Of a stretch of 31,953 nucleotides of DNA, positions 5,463 through 28,642 are shown piece by piece. The stretch is taken from positions 1 through 31,953 of IMG/VR virus record IMGVR_UViG_3300048589_000183. One strand, 5' to 3'. The DNA is from a virus. The stretch's first letter is position 1. The number at the start of each line of letters is the position of its first letter. The translations under genes were made by a program, and so were the position numbers. Under the pieces are notes generated by a model. The model did no database searches, was not told the origin of the DNA, and saw nothing but the letters and a program-made list of their open reading frames with translations.

Positions 5463-5755
5463 CACTTGCCCCCCTTGGACCACCAGCGGTCGATCAGCAT
5501 GTCCACAATCCGCCCGATAGCCCAAGACAGCGCGAACGCCACGAACACGCTTCCGCATTGCTCGGAATACTGGTCACGCACCCGACGCTTGATGGCCTTG
5601 CGGCCCTCCGGCGATAACGTGCGAGCGGTCAATGGCATGTTGCGTACGGCAAGCTTGGTGAGTCGCAGGCAGCGGTTGCGGCCTAGCAGGCTCCGTCGCC
5701 ACGTTGATGCGGCAAGGTCTTCCCACGCGGCTTCGTAGACGTCTTCCTGCGTCAT
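5462..5755 (-). CDS. Small membrane-associated hypothetical protein
   Basis: The protein is 97 aa. The start at 5755 gives an ATGA overlap with the protease gene; another ATG lies three codons upstream. The N-terminus is acidic (MTQEDVYEAAWEDL), the middle is strongly basic (RRSLLGRNRCLRLTKLAVR), and the C-terminus has one hydrophobic helix (VFVAFALSWAIGRIVDMLI) ending WWSKGGK. A membrane role next to the coiled-coil membrane gene is likely. The family is unrecognised. Confidence 0.5.
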   Translation of the reverse strand: MTQEDVYEAAWEDLAASTWRRSLLGRNRCLRLTKLAVRNMPLTARTLSPEGRKAIKRRVRDQYSEQCGSVFVAFALSWAIGRIVDMLIDRWWSKGGK

Positions 5756-6666
5756 TTTCGGCACCTGCCGTTGGGGCAGTTATCCGGCTTTACCGGAGAA
5801 CTGGACTTGCCACACTTGCCATCCGGGCACTGTGCCGCCGCCACGACATCCTCGATGGTCGGGCCGTTCAGGAACTCCCGAATCCGGCCGGCGTGGGTCG
5901 CATATGTACGGCTGCCTTCACTACCCCACAGGATTCCGGCTATATGTCCCTGAGCGTTAAATACCGGGCCTCCGCTGTCGCCCTGCCTGGCCGGAGTCGA
6001 AATGATGATGTGATCCATCGGGTGCTCGCTAGACGGCCGAGCCCGGCCAATGATCCGGCCACGGGATTCACGCCACGACGATGGATGCGGGCCGTAGCCG
6101 ACAACTGTCAAGGATTCCTTGACGGTTGGCTCGTCACCCAACAACGCGAATGCCGGGCCAGGCGTCTCGCATTGCAGCAACGCCAGGTCAAAAGCGTCGT
6201 CGGCCTTCACAACCCGTGCTTTGCTTTGAGTCCCGTCTTGGAAATACACCGTGGGTATATTCGCAGAGCTATTCGTGCGGACGACGTGCCACGCGGTCAG
6301 CACCTTGCCGTCGCCGATAGCAACGCCGCTGCCACGGCTGGTGGACGGCCCCTCGGCAACGACGATCCGCACGACGGCCTGCCGGTGGTCATGCGCCTTT
6401 TGATGCGCCTCGTCATGCGCTCCCGATCGGGATGGTACGCTTCCTGAATCACCAGGTTTTCCCGTGTGGGAAAAATGGTCCAGATTTCCTACACCCGAGC
6501 AGATCGGACAGACGTAGCGAACCGGGCCAGGCCCGACGAGGCCGGCATCGCAGTTGGGGCACTCGGCGGCGTTGCAGTAGCCGGCGAGCCAAAAACTGAT
6601 AGTGAGCACTGCAATCACAATGCCCACTAGAAGCACGCAGTCGGCTAGGAACTCGCGGAGTTTCAT
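5752..6666 (-). CDS. Exported or membrane-anchored trypsin-like serine protease with Cys motifs
   Basis: The protein is 304 aa. An N-terminal hydrophobic segment (residues 10-29) is followed by paired motifs CPNCDAG (36-42) and CPICSGVG (53-60), resembling half of a DnaJ-type zinc centre. A chymotrypsin-fold protease domain follows: H127 in TAWHVV, D160 in DDAFDLALL, S231 in GDSGGPV, so the triad is complete. The C-terminus carries CPDGKCGK and CPNGRCRK repeats. The predicted activity is peptide-bond cleavage outside the cytoplasm or on the virion. It lies immediately downstream of a papain-like protease gene. Target and timing are unknown. Confidence 0.85.
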   Translation of the reverse strand: MKLREFLADCVLLVGIVIAVLTISFWLAGYCNAAECPNCDAGLVGPGPVRYVCPICSGVGNLDHFSHTGKPGDSGSVPSRSGAHDEAHQKAHDHRQAVVRIVVAEGPSTSRGSGVAIGDGKVLTAWHVVRTNSSANIPTVYFQDGTQSKARVVKADDAFDLALLQCETPGPAFALLGDEPTVKESLTVVGYGPHPSSWRESRGRIIGRARPSSEHPMDHIIISTPARQGDSGGPVFNAQGHIAGILWGSEGSRTYATHAGRIREFLNGPTIEDVVAAAQCPDGKCGKSSSPVKPDNCPNGRCRK

Positions 6667-19132: not shown

Positions 19133-19597
19133 TCACGCCTCATGCTTCTCCACCAGACCACGATACGTCACTGCAATCTCCGCCAGGAATATCCGCCCGT
19201 GGATCACGGACTTGGCATCGTACAGCACCGGATTCTCGATGCTCACGAACTGCATCCCGTACGGCATGGCCGGCACGCTCTCCGGCAACGCATCCGAGCG
19301 AATCTTGTCGGCAATCTCGGCACGCAACCGCGACAGTCCGCCGAGTTCCGAGTTGGCCGTGATCGCTTTGGCGAGAACGACGTTGACCGTCACCTCGTGA
19401 AGATTGGCACCACGCGCCGCCTCGGTAACGTCCACGGCACCCGGAACGACCGACACCCGGAGGTCGGTAGCGTCCAGCCGCTCGAAGTCCGGCACGTACT
19501 CCATCGTGGGTGCGATCGCCGTGGAGAACGGATACCGGGCAAGGCTATCGGCCAAGCTCGTCGCCACCAGCACTTCGATTGCGTCAACCGCTGCCAT
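19133..19597 (-). CDS. Tail terminator/completion candidate (gpU-like position)
   Basis: The protein is 154 aa and begins one base after the stop of the glycosyltransferase gene. Sequence blocks are AVDAIEVLVATSLADSLARY and FERLDATDLRVSVVPG. A later EVTVNVVLAKAI and the end IFLAEIAVTYRGLVEKHEA give the alternating alpha/beta pattern of tail terminator proteins. Location directly before the gp10-like gene supports this. The family assignment is by position and style, not by a diagnostic motif. Confidence 0.55.
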   Translation of the reverse strand: MAAVDAIEVLVATSLADSLARYPFSTAIAPTMEYVPDFERLDATDLRVSVVPGAVDVTEAARGANLHEVTVNVVLAKAITANSELGGLSRLRAEIADKIRSDALPESVPAMPYGMQFVSIENPVLYDAKSVIHGRIFLAEIAVTYRGLVEKHEA

Positions 19598-19598
19598 G

Positions 19599-20651
19599 TT
19601 AATCGGGCTTCGGCCCGTCCTCCGTGACCAGTGATTCCAGCACCGCTACGTTGCGAGCCAGTTCGTCGTTGTCCGGTGCCTTCGCCGCTGCCGCCTTGGC
19701 GAACTTCAACGCCTCGCGGTAGCGGCCGACTTCCACGGCAGCACTCGCACCGATCGAAGCAGGCAGCGGCCCGTAGGCATTCGGGTCGCTTGAGTGCGTC
19801 TGGTCGCACTTCTGGCCCGCCACGGCAAGCCGCGAATAGTAGATAGCCGTCACGTGGTCGCCAATCTCGTAGGCCATCGCGGCAAGATCTGCCCGTGCCT
19901 CCGGCTCCGGCGATTCCAAGACAGCCCGGAGTAGGTGCCGCTGCCGCTGGTCCTTGTCGAGAACCGACAGCCGCCGCCACGCAAAAGCACGCTCGTGCGG
20001 CGAGCCTCCCGGCATCGCAAGGTAATGGCGGTAGGCGTCCGCGGCACCGGTTTCGTTCTCGGTGTCCAGTTCCCGAGCGAGATACCAGTGCATCCTGGCG
20101 TCGTGCGGTGCTTCGCGGACGGCTTGCTTGAGTAGCGTCAGGTCGGACTTGTGCTTCTTGTTCGGGTCGCGGTGGTGGTGAACCGCGATGCTGGTCGTGT
20201 AGACCGGGTTGTGTTCCACCGCCCACGGCACGAGGCCTTCGTGGGTGGCACCGGTCCATCGGTAGCCGTGCCGGGAGTGGATCCGGTCAAGGTTGAACAC
20301 TATGCCCGGCCCCCAATGGTACGGGTAGCGAAGCTGGGTGCAGCCGTCCACCCACGCCGCTTCGATCGCTTGCCGCCAGCCCGGCTCGATCGACTCGTCA
20401 AGGTCAAGCCGCACGGCGACGTCAACGTCGGCCGGAAGGTGCATCAGCGAAAGGTTGTGGGCGTCGTCCCACCGCCACGGCACCGGCGAGCCGTGGCACA
20501 CCGTCACGCCGTGATCCTCCAAAGCCTTTACGGTGCCGTCCGTGCTGCCGGTATCCGTGACGACCCGCACGTCAGCCTCCCGGCAGCAGGCCTCCCATCG
20601 GGCCACGTTGGCGGCCTCGTTCTTTGCCAAGGCATATACGCCGATCTTCAT
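19599..20651 (-). CDS. Family 2 glycosyltransferase with TPR-like C-terminus
   Basis: The protein is 350 aa; start 20651 by ATGA overlap. The N-terminus is a GT-A fold: MKIGVYALAKNEAANVARWE, DTGSTDGT (33-40), and a DxD-type motif in RLDLDESIEPGW (about 81-92). From about residue 165, helical pairs rich in Ala/Arg resemble tetratricopeptide repeats (YRHYLAMPGG, YEIGDHVTAIYYSRLAVAG). The predicted role is transfer of a sugar to a protein, glycan or DNA modification. It is the last gene of a five-gene sugar cluster within the late operon. Confidence 0.85.
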   Translation of the reverse strand: MKIGVYALAKNEAANVARWEACCREADVRVVTDTGSTDGTVKALEDHGVTVCHGSPVPWRWDDAHNLSLMHLPADVDVAVRLDLDESIEPGWRQAIEAAWVDGCTQLRYPYHWGPGIVFNLDRIHSRHGYRWTGATHEGLVPWAVEHNPVYTTSIAVHHHRDPNKKHKSDLTLLKQAVREAPHDARMHWYLARELDTENETGAADAYRHYLAMPGGSPHERAFAWRRLSVLDKDQRQRHLLRAVLESPEPEARADLAAMAYEIGDHVTAIYYSRLAVAGQKCDQTHSSDPNAYGPLPASIGASAAVEVGRYREALKFAKAAAAKAPDNDELARNVAVLESLVTEDGPKPD

Positions 20652-21262
20652 GCGGCACGCTCCCATACGATCAGTTTTTCGCCGGCCGTGCCGCGGCAGA
20701 TGGAGCAACGCGGCGAGCAACGGGTTGCCGAGCCGAGGCCGATGCCGGTGTTGATGTAGCGGACGGTGGTGTCAATGGGCCGACCAACCGAAGTGCCGAT
20801 CAATTCCGCATGGCAGTCGTAGTCGAGGTCTTCGCAGACGTATACGCCGCCTTTGGCAAGGTACGGCAGCAACGCCCCTGCCGTCCGTATCTGGTCAACG
20901 TCGCGGTGTGAACCGTCGTCAACGATGAGGTCGAATTGCAGCACCTCTCGCTGTGCAATCTTGGAAAGCCGCCGTTCGTCGTTCTGGTCGCCGTAGTAGC
21001 ATCGAATCCGCCCAGCGTTGAATAGACACGACTTGTCCACATCCACGCCCACGATCTCCGCATTCGGGAAATACTCCTCCCACATGCGAAGGCTCGCACC
21101 CTTGTGGACGCCAATTTCGAGAACCCGCTTCACCGTCTCACGCCGGTGACCTAGCAACTCGTGATACGCCGGTGTGTAGTTGTGGCAATGCTCGCCCGCG
21201 AGCGTGTGCCATCCGCCCTTGTCGCAAGCGTGTTTCCGTGCCAATTCGCACAGCGGTGTCAT
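20648..21262 (-). CDS. SAM-dependent methyltransferase (sugar O-methyltransferase-like)
   Basis: The protein is 204 aa; ATGA overlaps with both neighbours. Class I methyltransferase motifs are VLEIGVHKGASLRMWEEYFP (48-67), VGVDVD (71-76), DDGSHRDVDQI (115-125) and CEDLDYD (143-149). This pattern matches the macrocin/rhamnosyl O-methyltransferase group that modifies sugars. The C-terminal CSPRCSICRG cysteines are an oddity that may bind metal. The likely role is methylation of the glycan made by the adjacent transferases. Confidence 0.75.
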   Translation of the reverse strand: MTPLCELARKHACDKGGWHTLAGEHCHNYTPAYHELLGHRRETVKRVLEIGVHKGASLRMWEEYFPNAEIVGVDVDKSCLFNAGRIRCYYGDQNDERRLSKIAQREVLQFDLIVDDGSHRDVDQIRTAGALLPYLAKGGVYVCEDLDYDCHAELIGTSVGRPIDTTVRYINTGIGLGSATRCSPRCSICRGTAGEKLIVWERAA

Positions 21263-21963
21263 CGTACTGGTGCCTCCCAAGCCTTGCGATAGTTGAGGAA
21301 TTGCGTCTCGTCGTGGTTCGCCTTGAACCAATTGAACGGGATCACGCCCAGCAGCTCCACGAACGCGAGCGTGTTCATGTCCCACGACAGCCGGCCCGTG
21401 ATGGTCGTGCGGGTCAGCACGACCCCACGGACTGCCTCATACAAGTCCTTCACCCAATCGGCATGGACGACGAAGCACGAGCCCACGAAACGCCAGTGAG
21501 CCTCGGAATCATTGATCGGTCCCATAGGCCAGCATCCACCGGCACAGACGCCATCGAACGGCGTGACCTCCTGCAAGTCTTGGGCGAACTGCCGGATTAC
21601 GTCCTCCGTCACGTTCGTCTGCTTGAGTGCTGACCACTCCACCCACGCGAACACCTCCGCGTCCGGGTCGTTACGCGATGCCGCGTACAGCCAGTAGAAC
21701 CGCTGCAACAGAACGGCATTGCTCCGCACCATGTCCTGCGGCGTTGCGAAGCGATCCGCCGGCGGGTTGAGGCACGACGGCAGCAGATGCTCCACCGATT
21801 TCTCTTGCGGCAACCAGCAGTAATCGAAAGGCGACTCGAACGGCATGAGGCAATCGCCTGCCGCCATCTTGAGCCGTTCGCCCAGGCTACGGAATTGCTC
21901 CTGGCTGAGATGCTTCGCCGGGAATGCGTCCGGCACGAAGCCGGTCACGATGCGGGCTTTCAT
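21259..21963 (-). CDS. Putative glycosyltransferase, HtrL/YibB-like (copy 2)
   Basis: The protein is 234 aa, start 21963 by ATGA overlap. It begins MKARIVTGFVPDAFPAKHLS, has PDAEVFAWVEWSALKQTNVT in the middle and HADWVKDLYEAVRGVV after a CAGGCWPMG motif. It shares the opening (RIVTGF/Y) and the order of acidic/aromatic motifs with the next gene, so the two are probably paralogues from a duplication. The family call rests on overall pattern only. Confidence 0.55.
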   Translation of the reverse strand: MKARIVTGFVPDAFPAKHLSQEQFRSLGERLKMAAGDCLMPFESPFDYCWLPQEKSVEHLLPSCLNPPADRFATPQDMVRSNAVLLQRFYWLYAASRNDPDAEVFAWVEWSALKQTNVTEDVIRQFAQDLQEVTPFDGVCAGGCWPMGPINDSEAHWRFVGSCFVVHADWVKDLYEAVRGVVLTRTTITGRLSWDMNTLAFVELLGVIPFNWFKANHDETQFLNYRKAWEAPVR

Positions 21964-22652
21964 GCCGCCTCCAAGATGGTGTGGTTGTGGTCGCAGAGGT
22001 AGTGGCGGAAGAGGGCGGGCCGTTGCCGCCATGCCGCCGCCCACGTGTTCACCTCGTAAGTGATGCGTCCGAAGTTCGTCAGGCATCGCTCGGCAGCGTC
22101 CATTGCTTCCGCGTGAAACTCGCCCGCCAGCCGGCCGGGACAAATGACGACACCGCCGGCACACCACCACTCCACGCGGTCGGTCAAGATGCCGCGGATC
22201 GGCTCGCCCCAGATGCTCGCGAAAGTCACCTTGTCTTGCGGCAGATTGGCGGCACGCTCCACGAGGCCCAGGATGCCCGCCTCCGTCACGCCGGGAACGT
22301 GAAGGATGCCGAGGTCAACCCATACGAGCGTGTCCCGTGGGTCAATCGCCGCGGCCATTGCGAGCCACTGCGTCTTCTGATGCTGCACGGCATGGAAGTC
22401 GGCCGTGTCCTTCTCTGGGTTGTCGGTCATCGGAATCTTCGGCCTCTTGTCGGCCTTAATCCGCCAAAGCCAATGCACTTCCGCGTCAGCGTGAATCTCG
22501 GTATTCCAGCCCGGCTCGAAGCTCTCGTGCCAGTCCGTGAACAGGTCGATCGGCGTCGGCAAGGCCAATAGCCGATTCCCGAGCCGCACGTACTCCTCAT
22601 GGGGCCGCGGGCCATTCAGTACGTCGTACCCCGTCACAATCCGCACGTTCAT
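21960..22652 (-). CDS. Putative glycosyltransferase, HtrL/YibB-like (copy 1)
   Basis: The protein is 230 aa, start 22652 by ATGA overlap. It begins MNVRIVTGYDVLNGPRPHEE, contains AAAIDPRDTLVWVDLGILHV (acidic Asp between hydrophobic strands, as in nucleotide-sugar binding), then WWCAGGVVICPGRLAGEFHA and a C-terminal WRQRPALFRHYLCDHNHT. The motif order matches copy 2. A GT-A-like transferase is likely; donor and acceptor are unknown. Confidence 0.55.
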   Translation of the reverse strand: MNVRIVTGYDVLNGPRPHEEYVRLGNRLLALPTPIDLFTDWHESFEPGWNTEIHADAEVHWLWRIKADKRPKIPMTDNPEKDTADFHAVQHQKTQWLAMAAAIDPRDTLVWVDLGILHVPGVTEAGILGLVERAANLPQDKVTFASIWGEPIRGILTDRVEWWCAGGVVICPGRLAGEFHAEAMDAAERCLTNFGRITYEVNTWAAAWRQRPALFRHYLCDHNHTILEAA

Positions 22653-23704
22653 AACACCCTCACCGCTGCAAGTGCCGCGTCCAACGGGAACTCCGCCAAC
22701 CACGCCTCGGCATCGCGAACACCGAACGACGCAATCGCACGGCCTTCGATGACCGCCAGCCCGGCACAGAACTCGATGGCCCGCTTCTCGCGGAACCAGA
22801 ACGGCTCGGATACGCCGACGATCCGCCAGCCGTCCTCGGCGAACAAGACGAACCGATGCTCATAGATGCGGCATTTGCCGTCGTGAGCCACCTCGTGGAC
22901 GATGCAGAGCCATTGCCCGTTGCCAACCGGCACAAGCTGCGAGCCGCCGCGGAACCCGCGAGCGATGGCGGGCGATGGCGAGCCGATCGTCACCCTCCAC
23001 GTGTCGCCTTCCTCCGCAGCCGTTGCCGTGTGGCCTTGCACGCTGCACGAGTAGAGCCATTCCCGACGCCCGAGAATCGGCATCCAGTTCTTCTCGGCGA
23101 TGCCCGGCATCGTCTCGCGGACGATGAGGTCAACGTGATCGCCTTGTGCCATCCGAGCAACGCCGATACGGCATGTGCCGTCGTGCGGTGCCGCGTTGCG
23201 GACGGTGGCCGAAACGACCGTGTCAAAGTCAACGTGATTGAGCCGAACGTCCTCAAGGCCGTCTACCGGGAAGGCGGTGCGTTCATATTCGGCTTTGGCC
23301 GGAACTTCAATGAGAATCCCAAGCGTTTCGAGGTCGAGCATGCATCCGATGTTGTCTGTGCGGATAGTTTCGCCATCCTCTGGCGGCATGACGTACTTGC
23401 CATCGACAATCTGGTAGTTCGATGACCGCACGTTAACGAAAGGGTACGTAAGCCCGTCGATGATGCACGGGTTAAACCGCGACCACCCCGGCCGCACCTT
23501 CGGCAGTAGTTGCACTTGCCGCGGCTCGCAGCCGATCACCTCGGCAAGCGACCGCGTGTACCACGTGCGATTCCGTCGCACCTTCTCCTCCCGGCCTTGC
23601 GACAATCCAGGCATCGAAAGCAACTTTTCGCACGCCTTCCGGCCGACGTCATGCTCGCCGCAATGCCAAGCGTGGGCCGCGAGTTGGTACAGGTGTTCGA
23701 TCAT
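22649..23704 (-). CDS. GH130-like beta-propeller protein of a sugar cluster
   Basis: The protein is 351 aa; ATG 23704 is chosen because upstream codons lie in the 109-aa gene. A helical N-terminus (about 60 residues) is followed by repeated beta blades. Characteristic motifs are RGGSQLVPVGNGQWLCIVHE, YEHRFVLFAEDGWRIVGVSE and the end AIEFCAGLAVIEGRAIASFG with DAEAWLA. This pattern occurs in proteins related to glycoside phosphorylases (GH130) that accompany glycosyltransferases. It may act on or bind the glycan produced by the cluster. Catalytic identity is not certain. Confidence 0.6.
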   Translation of the reverse strand: MIEHLYQLAAHAWHCGEHDVGRKACEKLLSMPGLSQGREEKVRRNRTWYTRSLAEVIGCEPRQVQLLPKVRPGWSRFNPCIIDGLTYPFVNVRSSNYQIVDGKYVMPPEDGETIRTDNIGCMLDLETLGILIEVPAKAEYERTAFPVDGLEDVRLNHVDFDTVVSATVRNAAPHDGTCRIGVARMAQGDHVDLIVRETMPGIAEKNWMPILGRREWLYSCSVQGHTATAAEEGDTWRVTIGSPSPAIARGFRGGSQLVPVGNGQWLCIVHEVAHDGKCRIYEHRFVLFAEDGWRIVGVSEPFWFREKRAIEFCAGLAVIEGRAIASFGVRDAEAWLAEFPLDAALAAVRVL

Positions 23705-23751: not shown

Positions 23752-24081
23752 TCAGCCCTTCACGCAATACCGGATCGTGGCCGTCCCGGCGTTCAGCACC
23801 GGCACCGCAAACGGGAACCCGTAGCACTCGTCGGGAACCGGATACGCCCGAGCGTCGGTCAGGCTCTGAGTCACGGCGGTATTCGTTCGGTCGTTCAACG
23901 CCACCGGCGTTGCGGTGGCCGACTCGGCAACGTGCCAGGTGATCGTCACGCCGGTAACGAGGCTCGACACAAAAATGCCGCCGCCAGCGTAACGCTGCAT
24001 ATTGACGCGGCCGGTCGTGGAAGCCGACGCGGTGGCGGAAATACTGACTGCACCTTCGTTCTCGCGGTCAATTCCTGGCAT
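23752..24081 (-). CDS. Small beta-rich structural protein
   Basis: The protein is 109 aa with GGAG before ATG 24081. It is rich in Ala, Thr, Val and Gly with alternating hydrophobics (GVTITWHVAESATATPVALN), ending AGTATIRYCVKG. It has no membrane segment. Position between the small head proteins and the sugar cluster suggests a virion decoration or adaptor. The family is unrecognised. Confidence 0.5.
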   Translation of the reverse strand: MPGIDRENEGAVSISATASASTTGRVNMQRYAGGGIFVSSLVTGVTITWHVAESATATPVALNDRTNTAVTQSLTDARAYPVPDECYGFPFAVPVLNAGTATIRYCVKG

Positions 24082-24112: not shown

Positions 24113-24385
24113 CTACGAGAGGTTTGGTGCCGCGGCGATTGCGGCGCTGCCAAGATAGATCGTGTTTGCGCCGGTAAATGCGTCCGTGATGACGTAGAGC
24201 GTTGTGGATGACTTTGGCGACAAGGCCGCGTACTGAGCAGAGGTCAGGCCGACGATCGCCGTAACGGCGGTTCCTTCAACCTTCGCATCCACCGCCGCTT
24301 CGATCGCGTCAAGGTTGGCGTCATGCTCCGCGGCCGTCAGTGCCGTGCCCTTCACCAAACGGCGAACAAGTCCTGAAATGCTCAT
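24113..24385 (-). CDS. Small virion protein with tail-fibre-type motifs
   Basis: The protein is 90 aa with ATGA overlap to the gpFII-like gene. It contains RRLVKGTALTAAEHDANLDA and VGLTSAQYAALSPKSSTTLY followed by VITDA, both motifs common in phage upper tail fibre or baseplate-wedge peptides. It is too short to be a fibre itself, so it is probably a small adaptor or decoration protein. Confidence 0.6.
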   Translation of the reverse strand: MSISGLVRRLVKGTALTAAEHDANLDAIEAAVDAKVEGTAVTAIVGLTSAQYAALSPKSSTTLYVITDAFTGANTIYLGSAAIAAAPNLS

Positions 24386-24801
24386 GCTGCATACACTCCC
24401 GAATCGAAGACGCCAGACGCGAACACGGTCGATGCCACCCGGTAATCCTCAATCCGCAGACAATGGATACGACGCAACTTCTCGCCACGGTCCGCCCACG
24501 TCCAGCACTGCTGCCGGCCTGGTGGCACCATCACCTCGTACGCCTCGCCATCCTCCGTCACAATCCGATCGCCCCGCGCGGGCTGGTCGGAGTAATCCGA
24601 CACCGCCACGAAGATGTCACGGGTCTGAATCCGTGCCATCTGCCCGGCGGTGTCCATCACGTCCCACCGTCCCGTCACGACCGTGACGACGCACGGCACG
24701 GCCGTTGACGAGCCGGACTTGTAGTAGTCGGCGTTGATCGACAGATGCGCCCGCCGCTGCGTCTCGAACCACGTAGCGGCCTTGCTCATCATGTCTTGCA
24801 T
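24382..24801 (-). CDS. Head-tail connector protein (lambda gpFII-like)
   Basis: The protein is 139 aa; GGAGG precedes ATG 24801, which is preferred to the ATG at 24825. Sequence blocks are CVVTVVTGRWDVMDTAGQMA, RIQTRDIFVAVSDYSDQPAR, then GDRIVTEDGEAYEVMVPPGR and RIHCLRIEDYR. The order of Asp-rich loop, GDRI, G..YEV and C-terminal strand matches gpFII-type attachment proteins that close the head for tail joining. Position after the DUF2190 gene agrees. Confidence 0.65.
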   Translation of the reverse strand: MQDMMSKAATWFETQRRAHLSINADYYKSGSSTAVPCVVTVVTGRWDVMDTAGQMARIQTRDIFVAVSDYSDQPARGDRIVTEDGEAYEVMVPPGRQQCWTWADRGEKLRRIHCLRIEDYRVASTVFASGVFDSGVYAA

Positions 24802-24873
24802 CGAACGCCTCCCACCACAGACCACGCCCGCCGGTGGCCGCGGTTACAGCGACTCACCGGCGAGCGGAGTCAA

Positions 24874-25200
24874 TCAGTTGCCGCCAGGAACGACGAGAAC
24901 GTCAACGCTCGTATCGGTGGCCGCGCGAGCCTTGGCGAGGAAGCCGAGGTCAACGCCGGTAGACGCCGAAGCGATACCGCTGGTGGCCCAATACTTGATC
25001 GCCGAGCCCTGGGCACCGGTCGAGCCGGTGAGGCAAGCGAAGTTCCAAACACCGTTGGTGGACACGGCACCCAGCTTGCCAGCGGCGATCGCCGAATCGG
25101 CAATCGTCACGAGCGAACCGAGAACCACCACTTCGCCGGCCGCCACTGCGGACACCGGCGTGTAATCGAGCTTGTTTCCATCCGCAACACGACTTGGCAT
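24874..25200 (-). CDS. Capsid cement/decoration protein, DUF2190-like
   Basis: The protein is 108 aa with AAAGGA before ATG 25200. It shows the DUF2190 pattern: DGNKLDYTPVSAVAAGEVVV, LGSLVTIADSAIAAGKLG, then GVWNFACLTGS and a C-terminal LGFLAKARAATDTSVDVLVV. These small beta proteins bind the capsid surface. It lies immediately downstream of the capsid gene, separated by a strong hairpin. Confidence 0.8.
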   Translation of the reverse strand: MPSRVADGNKLDYTPVSAVAAGEVVVLGSLVTIADSAIAAGKLGAVSTNGVWNFACLTGSTGAQGSAIKYWATSGIASASTGVDLGFLAKARAATDTSVDVLVVPGGN

Positions 25201-25292: not shown

Positions 25293-26612
25293 TCAGGCGG
25301 TTGCCATCTTGTAGGCACCCTTGGTCTCGGCCACGGCCACGCCGTAGGAGAAGTGGCCGCGGAACTGCACGCCCAACTGAGCGAAATCGACGTCAGCCGA
25401 TTCCACGGTCGGGGCACGCTGCCCGTTGAGGTAGGCAATCTCCATCGCCGGGAGGTCCATCGGGCTGGCGGCGAGCCACCAAGTCGTCGCAGACGACAGG
25501 TAGCTCGATCCGACAACCTCGTACCGCCCAGCCAGCACGTTCTGCGAGGTCTGGGTCGTCGTGCTGCCCGTGATGAGCAACGCGGACGACATCATCTCAG
25601 CCGCAGTGATCTCAAGGTCAGCCGGCACAACAATGAACCGCGGCATGATGCCGAGCGGGTTGTTGTCGCTGTCCTTGAGCTTCCTCCAAGCCGTCACAGC
25701 CGCCTTGAGCGACGTCAGGCTGAGAGCGTTGCCACCGCCAGGAGTGGCGGCGGTGTAGCTCCCAGCGGCAAACGCCGTCCAGAAGTCGGTATTGAGCTTC
25801 AGAGCGGCACCACGACCGAGCCGGCTTGGCACCTGGGTCAGCACGCCGAGGTCGTCGTTGATGAGGTCCACCATCGACACCTTGGTGAGCCGGCCCGTGA
25901 GCTTGGCCTGGATCGTGCGAGTCTCATCGGAAGCCGCAGCGCCCTTGAGTTCGCCGGTCGGGCCAACATCAAGGAAGTCGAAGCCACCGTTGAGCCGAAC
26001 GCCGGTCATGCTCTTGTAGTCGCTGACCGAACGAACCGCCGCGATCTTCTCGTAGCCGCTTTCCACCGAAGAGAACCCGGCAAGGAGGAACTTGCCGTAG
26101 GTCGCCGAAAGCACGTTGCTGATCGAGTGCGTCGAGAACGCATTCGCCAGCACCTCCTTGCAGTTGCCCTGGTCGATTCGGTAGTGCCCGGTGTACCCGT
26201 TTGCGCGGGCAGCCTCGATCAGCACTTCCTGAAGCGAACCGCGGCCGTGCCGCTTGTGGGCAAGCTCAAGCGTCTTGGCATCGAACGACGCCTCGACGTT
26301 GGGCAGACCACCGGCAAGGCAGAGCCCGGCCTCGATCACCTTCGGAGAGTTTGCAGCAGCAGCGTCAACCACGTGGACGGCCGGACTTTTGGCCCGGTCG
26401 GCACGCTCGCGGCCCAACAACTCCTCCTTCAGCTTCGACAGCACGAGGTCGGCAACGCTGTTGGCGTCAACGAGGCTCGCGCCGTCGCCACCCTTGGCTT
26501 CGATGCCGAGCGATGCTTCAACGCTCTTGTTCTCGGTCCCCACGGCGGCCTTCGCCGTGTCTTCCGCAGACGCCTTGACGTCTTCGGGCTTGTCGGTGGC
26601 CTTATCAGCCAT
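25293..26612 (-). CDS. Nested internal start: protease-less scaffold-capsid form
   Basis: An in-frame ATG at codon 185 of the fusion gene (26612-26610, protein begins MADKATDKPEDVKAS) is preceded by GGAGG with eight bases between, better than most RBSs in this operon. The product would have 439 aa and contain the scaffold-like linker and the capsid domain. Internal starts that make excess scaffold or capsid relative to protease are known, for example lambda C and Nu3. This is a prediction from sequence. Confidence 0.55.
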   Translation of the reverse strand: MADKATDKPEDVKASAEDTAKAAVGTENKSVEASLGIEAKGGDGASLVDANSVADLVLSKLKEELLGRERADRAKSPAVHVVDAAAANSPKVIEAGLCLAGGLPNVEASFDAKTLELAHKRHGRGSLQEVLIEAARANGYTGHYRIDQGNCKEVLANAFSTHSISNVLSATYGKFLLAGFSSVESGYEKIAAVRSVSDYKSMTGVRLNGGFDFLDVGPTGELKGAAASDETRTIQAKLTGRLTKVSMVDLINDDLGVLTQVPSRLGRGAALKLNTDFWTAFAAGSYTAATPGGGNALSLTSLKAAVTAWRKLKDSDNNPLGIMPRFIVVPADLEITAAEMMSSALLITGSTTTQTSQNVLAGRYEVVGSSYLSSATTWWLAASPMDLPAMEIAYLNGQRAPTVESADVDFAQLGVQFRGHFSYGVAVAETKGAYKMATA

Positions 26613-27164
26613 AGGGTCAACCTCCGAACTCGCATCCGCTGCGATAGCGGCAGACGTATTGGCGTCTGCTCCAAAGAGGACCAAAGACACTTCCCGCAGC
26701 CGCGAGGCCCGGACGACGGTAATGGGACCAGCGAACTCGCGACCGTTGACGGTCACGCTCGCGCCCGACTTGACGTATTCGGTGCGGTCAACGCTCGCAC
26801 CAATCGAAGCCTGCAACGGCACGCCAGCGGCCCCGAGGCGGATGAGCTTGTCGGCGTTGGGTTCGCCGCGGATAAGGTCGGCCGCAATATCAAGCTGCTT
26901 GCCGTCGTTCTCGATCCGCGTTGACTTGCCTACCACGCTGTCCAGCGAGTTCATGTCCTCGCGACCGTGGGCATACAGAACCGGCACCGTGTCGCCAGCC
27001 TTGACGCCTGCCAGGTCCACCACGAGCGGCACGTCCGACCACGCTTGAGCGATCTGGTCGCCGGTGTACGCCACGATGTCAACGGTCGGCTGACGCTCGC
27101 CCTCGCCAGCGGCGAAGGCAATGTCGGCGGAGAGGTTCAGCGTGTAGTTCTTCTTCTTGCTCAT
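25293..27164 (-). CDS. Prohead protease-major capsid fusion protein
   Basis: The protein is 623 aa; ATGA overlaps the portal stop. Residues 25-165 form an HK97-type (S78-like) prohead protease: the His is H66 in LYAHGRED and the Ser S120 in LQASIGASV. Residues 180-270 are Ala/Lys/Glu-rich, a scaffold-like linker. Residues 275-623 are the capsid domain (Mu gpT-like/HK97 fold style): FSTHSISNVLSATYGKFLLA, TRTIQAKLTGRLTKVSMVDL, INDDLG, ending YGVAVAETKGAYKMATA. The precursor would assemble, then cleave itself between scaffold and capsid domains. An internal RBS and ATG suggest a second, protease-less product. Confidence 0.88.
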   Translation of the reverse strand: MSKKKNYTLNLSADIAFAAGEGERQPTVDIVAYTGDQIAQAWSDVPLVVDLAGVKAGDTVPVLYAHGREDMNSLDSVVGKSTRIENDGKQLDIAADLIRGEPNADKLIRLGAAGVPLQASIGASVDRTEYVKSGASVTVNGREFAGPITVVRASRLREVSLVLFGADANTSAAIAADASSEVDPMADKATDKPEDVKASAEDTAKAAVGTENKSVEASLGIEAKGGDGASLVDANSVADLVLSKLKEELLGRERADRAKSPAVHVVDAAAANSPKVIEAGLCLAGGLPNVEASFDAKTLELAHKRHGRGSLQEVLIEAARANGYTGHYRIDQGNCKEVLANAFSTHSISNVLSATYGKFLLAGFSSVESGYEKIAAVRSVSDYKSMTGVRLNGGFDFLDVGPTGELKGAAASDETRTIQAKLTGRLTKVSMVDLINDDLGVLTQVPSRLGRGAALKLNTDFWTAFAAGSYTAATPGGGNALSLTSLKAAVTAWRKLKDSDNNPLGIMPRFIVVPADLEITAAEMMSSALLITGSTTTQTSQNVLAGRYEVVGSSYLSSATTWWLAASPMDLPAMEIAYLNGQRAPTVESADVDFAQLGVQFRGHFSYGVAVAETKGAYKMATA

Positions 27165-28642
27165 TCGTCCTCCGGTTCGTCGCCTTGCATCGCAGCGGCA
27201 ACAGCCACTTGCGAAAGGCTGGCTGGATCAATTCCGAGTTCACGCTGCAAGGCAAGTTCTTCGGCTCGCTTTCGCATCACGAGCCGGCTGTCCTTGCCAC
27301 GCTTGCCGCAGACTTCCGCAAGGGTCGTCATGTTTGCGGCAAGCATGATCGCGTCGGCCTCGGCTTCCTTCTTGGGGTCCACATGCTCGAAGCCGTCCCA
27401 CGTCCACGACCAGTTCCATTCCGAGAACGGCGGAAGGCCGCGCGGAATCATGCCGCTGATGAGCGTTGCTTCATCGAGCCACGAGTAGAGAATCGGGTCG
27501 AGCCAAACCCGCTCGACGTCCGACCGCTCTACGTTGATCGCCTTGCGATAAACCTGATAGTCGCCACGCATTGACGAGTAGTTCGCGGACGACGAATCCA
27601 TCGCCGCGACGATGTACGGCATGTCGAGGCAGCGGGCGATCTCGTTCAACACCTGGCGGACGAACGCCGAGTGTTCGCTCTTGGGATGCTCCGACTTCAT
27701 CTGCACCGGCTCCCAACCATCGGGAGCGGCAACGCCCATATTCGGGACAACCGGCATCGTCTCGAACAGGTCGAGCGTCTTCGCGCCGCCGGTGTCGGCT
27801 GGCATGGTCGTCTTCAAGACGAACGAAACGTTGGCGGCAGTCTCGTAGGCAAGCACGACGGCACGCCCGGTACGCCGCAACATGGCGAACAGTTCAAGTG
27901 CCGGCGTGATCTCCGGTACGCCGCGGCTCTGGCCCGGTCGCGTTGCGTGGAACCAGTGAAGCACCTTGTCGGCGTCAACCCACTCGCCATCCTGGCCCCA
28001 CCCGGAGAACGACGAGCCAGGGTGATACTTGGCGACCCAATACGCAGCCGGGTTGCCGTCCTCGTCGAACCGGATGCCGTCCACCTCGTTCGGCAGTTCA
28101 ATCGTGCCGAGCGGCGAATAGACCTGATCGGCCTCAAGCAACTTGACGTCGAGTTGCACCTTGCGGAACTTGCGGTTGTTCGTTTTCAGCCCGAACACCT
28201 CGCCGGCGGCGATCTTGGCCTGCTTGGCAAGTCGCAATTTCTGAGCCAAGTCGCACTCGACCGACCAATCGAAAAACGCCGTTTCGACTTGCCGCGTCTT
28301 GCGCGGGTTGACGTCCGGCCCGAGGTCAAGCTGCAACCGTGGCCCGGTGCCAACCATGTCTCGCGCCCACGTCGAAGCCATGCCAGCCGCGTAGGAGTTG
28401 TTGGCAAGTTCGTAGCGAGCCCGGTTGCGAATCTTCGTACGCACGGCCGGCGACAACGCCGCGTCCGGCGAGAACCCGTCAGCGTTGGCCCAGTGCCGCT
28501 CGTTGTTCGCGTGCGTCTTCGCAGCGTCGTAGGACGCCCGCAAAAGGCTCTGGATGGTCGCGTTTTGAGCGTCCACCGTGGCGGCGAGCTTCGCGCGGCT
28601 AGTTCCGGCGAGCGGCGAAAGGAGCTTTCCGAGAAGGCTCAT
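27161..28642 (-). CDS. Portal protein, lambda gpB-like family
   Basis: The protein is 493 aa. Typical segments are RYELANNSYAAGMASTWARD and MVGTGPRLQ, LLEADQVYSP, VLHWFHATRPGQSRGVPEIT, and the C-terminal EIARCLDMPYIVAAMDSSSA with NYSSMRGDYQVYRKAI. These are hallmarks of the phage lambda-type portal family (PF05136), the dodecameric ring through which DNA is packaged and ejected. Overlaps of four bases with the gpW-like gene upstream and the capsid gene downstream support coupled synthesis. Confidence 0.92.
   Translation of the reverse strand: MSLLGKLLSPLAGTSRAKLAATVDAQNATIQSLLRASYDAAKTHANNERHWANADGFSPDAALSPAVRTKIRNRARYELANNSYAAGMASTWARDMVGTGPRLQLDLGPDVNPRKTRQVETAFFDWSVECDLAQKLRLAKQAKIAAGEVFGLKTNNRKFRKVQLDVKLLEADQVYSPLGTIELPNEVDGIRFDEDGNPAAYWVAKYHPGSSFSGWGQDGEWVDADKVLHWFHATRPGQSRGVPEITPALELFAMLRRTGRAVVLAYETAANVSFVLKTTMPADTGGAKTLDLFETMPVVPNMGVAAPDGWEPVQMKSEHPKSEHSAFVRQVLNEIARCLDMPYIVAAMDSSSANYSSMRGDYQVYRKAINVERSDVERVWLDPILYSWLDEATLISGMIPRGLPPFSEWNWSWTWDGFEHVDPKKEAEADAIMLAANMTTLAEVCGKRGKDSRLVMRKRAEELALQRELGIDPASLSQVAVAAAMQGDEPEDE

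Follow-up and report, generated by a model that had tools for sequence, protein, structure and literature searches.

A modular five-gene glycan cassette in the late structural operon of an uncultured phage and its putative role in virion decoration

Why a virus should carry a run of sugar-related genes between its head and tail genes is the question raised by IMG/VR virus record IMGVR_UViG_3300048589_000183, which derives from an uncultured bacterial virus and whose 31,953 bases (positions 1 to 31,953) are the stretch of DNA analysed here (the window). An initial annotation had described five translationally coupled genes at 19599-23704 as a glycan cluster inside the late structural operon. 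The five open reading frames (ORFs) are indeed present at exactly these coordinates on the minus strand, and are transcribed in the order prop, H1, H2, MT, GT:

22649..23704, minus strand: prop, GH130/GT108-type five-bladed beta-propeller, first gene of the cassette (351 amino acids, aa)
21960..22652, minus strand: H1, glycosyltransferase of GT-A fold that bears a distant likeness to HtrL/YibB and has the motifs WVDLGI and, at the C-terminus, DHN (230 aa)
21259..21963, minus strand: H2, paralogue of H1 by alignment (A8) and by cross-match to H1 (234 aa)
20648..21262, minus strand: MT, S-adenosylmethionine (SAM) methyltransferase, Methyltransf_24 / phrog_21658 (204 aa)
19599..20651, minus strand: GT, family 2 glycosyltransferase (GT2) domain followed by a tetratricopeptide repeat (TPR) region, last gene of the cassette (350 aa)

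All four internal junctions are 4-base ATGA stop/start overlaps, in line with the annotated coupling, and the next gene downstream, a putative tail terminator, begins 1 nt past the GT stop. The block contains 0 promoter-like and 4 terminator-like sites, not above the level of shuffled sequence. The evidence presented below makes it very likely, in our judgement, that the block builds a glycan. That the target of the glycan is the virion is the reading that we favour on balance, and we lean towards a self-contained module, co-expressed with the virion genes, that would decorate a virion protein.

The block is more than a chance assemblage, because it recurs in the same order in a relative carrying all five genes (L003/L008, a single contig) and because all five genes show low ratios of nonsynonymous to synonymous polymorphism (pN/pS) in this comparison. 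Identities between the window and the relative are 85% for prop, 53% for H1, 86% for H2, 73% for MT and 91% for GT. The pN/pS of GT (0.154) is the lowest of the ten genes compared, and the values for H2 (0.187), prop (0.244), MT (0.452) and H1 (0.464), set beside that of the capsid (0.250), keep all five cassette genes below 0.47, indicating that they are under purifying selection.

A propeller-family scan yielded at least 558 relatives in viral contigs, 80 of which were kept. Among 52 loci (L028-L079) selected by prop or H1 queries, prop and GT are both present in 51, all on one strand, the lone exception (L032) ending inside H1, and in 51 of 51 loci holding the pair GT directly precedes the putative tail terminator. 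The slot between prop and GT contains recognised sugar-tailoring genes in 46 of the 51 loci and none recognised in five. In overlapping categories, Methyltransf_24-type genes occur in 28 loci, relatives of H1, H2 or MT in 20 and GT2 genes in 10, and FkbM methyltransferase and NTP-transferase-like genes are found there as well.

A capsid-anchored scan, limited to the best 80 of at least 589 relatives, provided a test free of selection by prop or H1. The 26 loci long enough to hold both the head-tail joining gene and the tail terminator carry prop together with GT in 21 cases, neither in five, and one alone in none. These spanning loci include contigs that look near-identical by gene spacing (e.g. 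L164/L165 and L135/L139), and among the five loci without the block L131 and L132 are near-identical and L126 is close, so that independent lineages number fewer than 26. Searches for prop and GT in the five block-less records, all short fragments searched without a positive control, were empty. Since prop and GT are all or none at this site, the block behaves as one unit that is either there or missing, with neighbours of the same kinds in both cases, and the cassette has fixed ends and a variable middle. The comparison with relatives lacking the block, which the initial annotation had proposed, strengthens its argument from location.

The two fixed ends also occur within a single protein. 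Relatives of prop were found on nine bacterial contigs (metagenome-assembled genomes, MAGs, titled Chloroflexi, Acidimicrobiia, Actinomycetota, Microthrix, Acidobacteriota, Planctomycetota and Chlamydiae), and on eight of the nine they are fused to a GT relative in one protein, in both orders, with GT2 and TPR first in L198 and the propeller first in L191. The neighbour sequences of L192 and L193, judged by eye, look chromosomal; the A7 scan of genomes returned bacterial fusions that are not in prophages where the context is readable, and the A5-family scan returned no relative. Two viral loci also encode the fused protein, and relatives of cassette genes come after it (H2 and MT in L080, 8747-12512; H1, H2 and MT in L097, 7421-12434, which adds an epimerase of the GDP-mannose-dehydratase type). 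In both, the fusion lies downstream of a gene matching phrog_332, which we take to be a T7-like portal, and in L080 it lies upstream of the major head protein. Based on fusion and adjacency, prop and GT are predicted to act together, presumably as split halves of one enzyme that is fused in bacteria, and the module has found its way among the head genes of two or more distinct phage types. As a separate observation, the Chloroflexi MAG that contains L191 (G006) has seven propeller-family matches, of which three lie within open frames 830-872 aa long, an expanded family in one bacterial genome.

Searches of the PDB by sequence alone were uninformative both for the propeller family (mainly engineered repeat propellers) and for H1 and H2 (mainly protein A repeats), and structure searches were therefore used for prop and H1. 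An AlphaFold2 model of prop on a 26-member alignment (predicted local distance difference test, pLDDT, 89.8) was used as Foldseek query, and the top 33 hits are all GH130-type mannoside phosphorylases or mannosidases, or putative glycosidases that we take to be of that type. Structural alignment (VIA-align) gave Z 24-21 with GH130 phosphorylases and Z 19-18 with the GT108 enzymes of Leishmania. The best match, 5ay9 (Z 24.1, root-mean-square deviation, rmsd, 3.1, 275 residues aligned), identifies the fold as a five-bladed beta-propeller, to which prop adds an N-terminal helical cap resembling a TPR remnant. The Pfam GH130 profile (PF04041) did not match prop at E<=1, nor anything at E<=10 across the window record, in a search whose control gave matches in 8 of 14 genomes; the same profile matches two of the five propeller-family members of alignment A3 (best E 1.3e-4). 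Because prop falls under the family profile cut-off, we call it GH130/GT108-like on structural grounds and do not file it as a GH130 member, and the GH130-like propeller of the initial annotation is thus borne out by the structure model (Z 24), not by the Pfam profile.

Residues N78, E151, D152, K205, H270 and D331 of prop are invariant in 26 family members. Alignment of the A3 profile with 7fip brings N78, D152 and D331 into register with Asn28, Asp98 and Asp287 of Teth514_1789, with an 11-residue offset deduced between the 7fip chain and the published numbering. These three are the mannose-recognition residues of Teth514_1789 (PMC4264767; this and the other articles cited by PMC number are drawn on in part), and the position equivalent to D152 is the putative acid discussed for GH130 (PMC4599007). 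A planctomycete GH130 set of 12 loci was reduced to nine by keeping those in which an ORF of 230-480 residues matched the regular expression [EY]DPR. The YHG histidine of these nine sequences, presumably a basic phosphate-site residue such as marks GH130 phosphorylases, in contrast to the Glu pair of the hydrolases, aligns with H270 at an hhalign probability of only 12.5% in a selected set, and given this low probability residue mapping beyond the Asn/Asp/Asp triad was dropped. The model strongly suggests that prop is an enzyme of the GH130/GT108-type fold, which may catalyse transfer from GDP-mannose (GDP-Man) or phosphorolysis of mannan. Homologues of prop are found in three isolated-phage records.

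The initial annotation had called H1 and H2 two paralogous HtrL/YibB-like transferases. Their paralogy is supported, as a distant one, by a match of the window's H1 to the H2 of a relative (24% identity, E ~1e-4). The likeness to HtrL/YibB amounts to a weakly similar stretch that immediately precedes and surrounds the W-x-D motif; the HtrL_YibB profile (PF09612) reached 11.1 bits, far under its cut-off of 24.1 (E 0.29), and matched three of 21 members of the H1/H2 family at E<=1 (best 0.016). The structure prediction that had been suggested for the paralogues was run for H1 and produced a GT-A fold (pLDDT 94.1) whose structural neighbours are LARGE1 (best match; Z 14.0, rmsd 3.8, 197 aligned), blood-group and alpha-1,3-galactosyltransferases (Z ~12) and the PBCV-1 capsid glycosyltransferase 2p72 (Z 11.4). 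The fold of this one member supports the annotated transferase pair. Across the 21 aligned sequences (alignment A8) the C-terminal His is invariant, and the Asp of the W-x-D motif is replaced by Glu in all four H2-subfamily members and retained in the other 17. This substitution possibly marks a shift in specificity or a pseudo-enzyme partner. Neither H1 nor H2 has an isolated-phage match at E<=1.

The methyltransferase and the family 2 glycosyltransferase were correctly recognised by the initial annotation. MT is just over the cut-off of Methyltransf_24 (PF13578; 27.7 bits against 26.3), matches phrog_21658 (E 2.6e-21) and has homologues in 14 isolated-phage records. GT matches phrog_13126 (E 5e-63) and has homologues in seven such records; its matches to Glycos_transf_2 (E 0.086) and TPR_16 (E 4e-4) are both under cut-off, its invariant DTGSTD and LDxDE motifs include the acidic metal-binding motif of GT2 enzymes, and its full-length profile matches TPR structures. 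The GT-domain profile matches four PDB entries with E between 1.2e-6 and 0.02, namely 7msk (ThuS-type, and by our assumption ThuS itself), 22ao (GmaR), and 7msp and 7msn (SunS). ThuS and SunS glycosylate peptides. GmaR glycosylates flagellin, which its TPR region has been proposed by the authors to recognise (PMC9638930), and FlmG is a modular flagellin O-glycosyltransferase (PMC7591256). As far as is known, then, the nearest solved relatives of GT appear to be polypeptide glycosyltransferases, and GT is itself a putative transferase of sugar to polypeptide. Profile assignments of the five genes to non-carbohydrate functions, the result by which the initial annotation would have stood refuted, did not appear beyond weak or chance matches (KOW6 and Cu-amine-oxidase, besides the engineered propellers and protein A repeats mentioned above). 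A defence or anti-defence role was also considered and rejected, since none of the five genes had a PADLOC match at E<=0.01.

The neighbouring genes of the minus-strand late operon are the following:

19133..19597, minus strand: putative tail terminator, so called from its position and size, constantly found next to GT on the downstream side
23752..24081, minus strand: small protein between the head-tail joining gene and the cassette, with a 67% identical orthologue in the five-gene relative
24113..24385, minus strand: short protein with a Phage_tail_C motif (PF24243)
24382..24825, minus strand: head-tail joining protein, upstream landmark (PF25138, E 2.4e-15)
24874..25200, minus strand: cement protein (PF09956)
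25293..27164, minus strand: prohead protease / major capsid fusion (NF045541, E 4e-64, under the curated cut-off)
27161..28642, minus strand: lambda-type portal (TIGR01539, E 3e-36, under the curated cut-off)

TerL, recognised by a GpA nuclease domain profile, also lies upstream of the block, and the tape measure (PF10145) lies downstream. The annotated position between head proteins and tail terminator agrees with these assignments, the head genes being identified by profile and the terminator remaining putative, with zero matches in Pfam, PHROGs and further profile searches. The product of 23752-24081, which has no useful family match in Pfam or PHROGs, is a possible virion protein or substrate.

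The slot directly upstream of prop is the hypervariable part of the genomes of the relatives (L028-L079), reaching ~7.5 kb. Its genes fall into tail-fibre, head-decoration and virion-structural PHROGs, with Laminin_G/ConA-like lectin, PATR, collagen and CBM5/12 domains, and in the window it holds two short proteins alone (24113-24385 and 23752-24081). The slot between the head-tail joining gene and prop is likely a host-range or adhesion region, and its fibre, lectin-like and decoration proteins would be natural candidate substrates for glycosylation. Loci lacking the block have fibre-like genes at the site as well, L144 showing PTR together with a weak match to head fibre, and L131 a Gly-rich domain. 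In L126, L131 and L132 a small protein precedes the tail terminator by ~120 bases, and its homologues in L149, L150 and L072 (70, 74 and 53% identity) stand directly before prop. This protein of ~130 aa (L131:7806-8198, L149:13005-13397, L072:6040-6279), which has no Pfam match, is located between a fibre-type gene and either the cassette or the tail terminator, and from this position may, as a guess, be a fibre-assembly chaperone.

A virion target is favoured because the solved relatives of the TPR-containing GT are of the polypeptide type, because variable fibre genes are adjacent to the cassette, and because the fused enzyme lies between portal and capsid in a second phage type. The substrate is probably one or more of the adjacent fibre, adhesin or decoration proteins. 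The pathway that we infer, with its catalytic steps, their order, sugars, donors and substrate, would begin in the cytoplasm, where the GT2-TPR enzyme would use its TPR region to bind a newly synthesised virion polypeptide and would add the first sugar. The GT-A enzymes H1 and H2 would then extend the glycan, H2 possibly with altered catalysis or as a helper. The propeller, as the split partner of the GT2-TPR enzyme, might add or phosphorolytically remodel a terminal residue, possibly a beta-mannosyl one, using mannose 1-phosphate (Man-1-P) or GDP-Man, and MT would cap or diversify the sugar. A broader and distinctly tentative extension, which we would sooner doubt than affirm, is that of programmable virion glycosylation in a large, mostly uncultured lineage of tailed phages, in which the split-fusion ends stay constant, the middle and the fibre genes are interchangeable, surface sugars change as readily as fibres, and a propeller finishes a protein-bound glycan.

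Several observations weigh against virion decoration. Single-gene relatives occur elsewhere: the McProf relative of MT is found among early genes before the terminase, and in cyanophage S-SCSM1 the MT relative belongs to a group of glycosyltransferase genes next to hli and petF. In PHROGs the GT family comes under moron, auxiliary and host takeover. As a class, then, the cassette genes are not confined to virion operons. Five relatives build virions without the block. A nucleotide-sugar pyrophosphorylase-type gene (PF00483) was found in none of 11 records (that of the window and 10 others), and sugar donors therefore probably come from the host. Position within the late operon may reflect expression timing alone, and virion glycosylation, with its glycoprotein and substrate, is here predicted from the genes of an uncultured phage.

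The main rival, which we consider unlikely, holds that the cassette modifies a host surface glycan late in infection, masking the receptor, preventing superinfection or re-adsorption to debris, or changing the capsule or lipopolysaccharide (LPS). GT-A and GT2 enzymes, methyltransferases and HtrL-like proteins are all typical of surface-polysaccharide loci, and the PHROGs label of moron and host takeover fits the same idea. HtrL/YibB is named in a paper on the lipooligosaccharide outer core (PMC4172580), and relatives within GH130/GT108 act on oligo- and polysaccharides (PMC8950772). Against this, the nearest solved relatives of GT modify polypeptides, the cassette has variable fibre-type genes beside it and is surrounded by head and tail genes in two phage types, and no flippase-like membrane protein was noticed among the five genes.

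It is less probable still that the propeller forms part of the virion or serves as a receptor-binding depolymerase, with the other genes tailoring its ligand. GH130 folds do bind mannosides, and prop is, judged by eye, among the most conserved late genes. Its fusion with GT in both orders and its ATGA coupling to the enzymes point instead to an intracellular enzyme. One apparent fusion of a virion protein to the propeller, a 754-aa ORF in L150, was rejected, the first ~400 residues being read out of frame from an open, GC-rich stretch and the propeller beginning at the usual MIEHL.

Auxiliary carbohydrate metabolism, in which the block would turn over a beta-mannan reserve of the host, finds a parallel in the GT108 enzymes of Leishmania, dual transferase-phosphorylases that recycle beta-1,2-mannan (mannogen; PMC8950772), and is very improbable for a block that is co-expressed with late virion genes and in which a polypeptide GT of the TPR type occurs together with methyltransferases and interchangeable tailoring genes, features unlike catabolism. 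The initial annotation had offered the virion, the cell surface or DNA as targets, and the evidence leans to the first. DNA is the least likely: glycosylation of modified bases has precedents in phage DNA glucosyltransferases, one gene of S-SCSM1 near the MT relative being annotated as a DNA beta-glucosyltransferase, and is nevertheless hardly credible here, with a PF00303 thymidylate-synthase/hydroxymethylase-type gene in none of the nine block-carrying records, several of them fragments, and GT relatives that act on polypeptides.

Virion decoration by phage-encoded glycosyltransferases has precedents in mycobacteriophages Che8, Corndog and Myrna, where glycans are placed on capsid or tail-tube proteins (PMC11256854, PMC12363180, citing Freeman et al. 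2023). It has been shown in few tailed phages, these three being named in one of the two sources (PMC12363180). Here the virion target is predicted. The glycosyltransferase genes of mycobacteriophage Maravista are described as lying towards the 3' genome end (PMC11256854), unlike the present cassette between the head-tail joining gene and the putative tail terminator, which in addition has a propeller and a swappable middle. No paper found describes the cassette, as judged by title and beginning of the abstract with few subscription papers within reach, and within the literature searched the split, modular design appears new, virion glycosylation as such being already known from mycobacteriophages.

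Outside phages, SunS, ThuS and GmaR share the GT2-type domain with GT, followed in GmaR by TPR as well, and together with FlmG, which is likened here by description alone, they modify an exported or assembled polypeptide in the cytoplasm, as would be the case for GT. Their sequence similarity to GT is distant, and the partner propeller of GT is encoded as a separate gene. GH130/GT108 enzymes share the five-bladed propeller and the aligned Asn/Asp/Asp residues with prop, and differ from it in that prop escapes the Pfam GH130 profile, bears a helical cap and is paired or fused with GT2-TPR. Homologous propellers of the large aquatic phages DSL-LC02, DSL-LC01 and S-SCSM2R are annotated as beta-mannosyltransferase or MGP and adjoin tail-fibre, methyltransferase or baseplate genes, two of the three standing beside tail-fibre or baseplate genes; they share 25-29% identity with prop, and the genomes are much larger and have a different gene order.

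If virion decoration is the correct reading, glycosylation would count among the near-core traits of a broad environmental lineage of phages and would not be a rare add-on, and relatives with or without the block at the same place would be natural controls. The split and fused forms of the pair also propose a function for the bacterial family of GT2-TPR-propeller proteins, and link a mannoside-phosphorylase-type fold to protein glycosylation, an enzymatic idea that can be tested.

Beyond the cassette, the window has no tRNA. A trypsin-like serine protease (PF13365, E 7e-23) is encoded downstream of the tail genes at 5752-6666 on the minus strand. A second record of 39,999 bases, IMGVR_UViG_3300048930_000238 (L002, L006, L007, L014 and L025), matches the window at 99-100% identity in 18 of 18 compared proteins, and is probably the same phage with ~8 kb more sequence.

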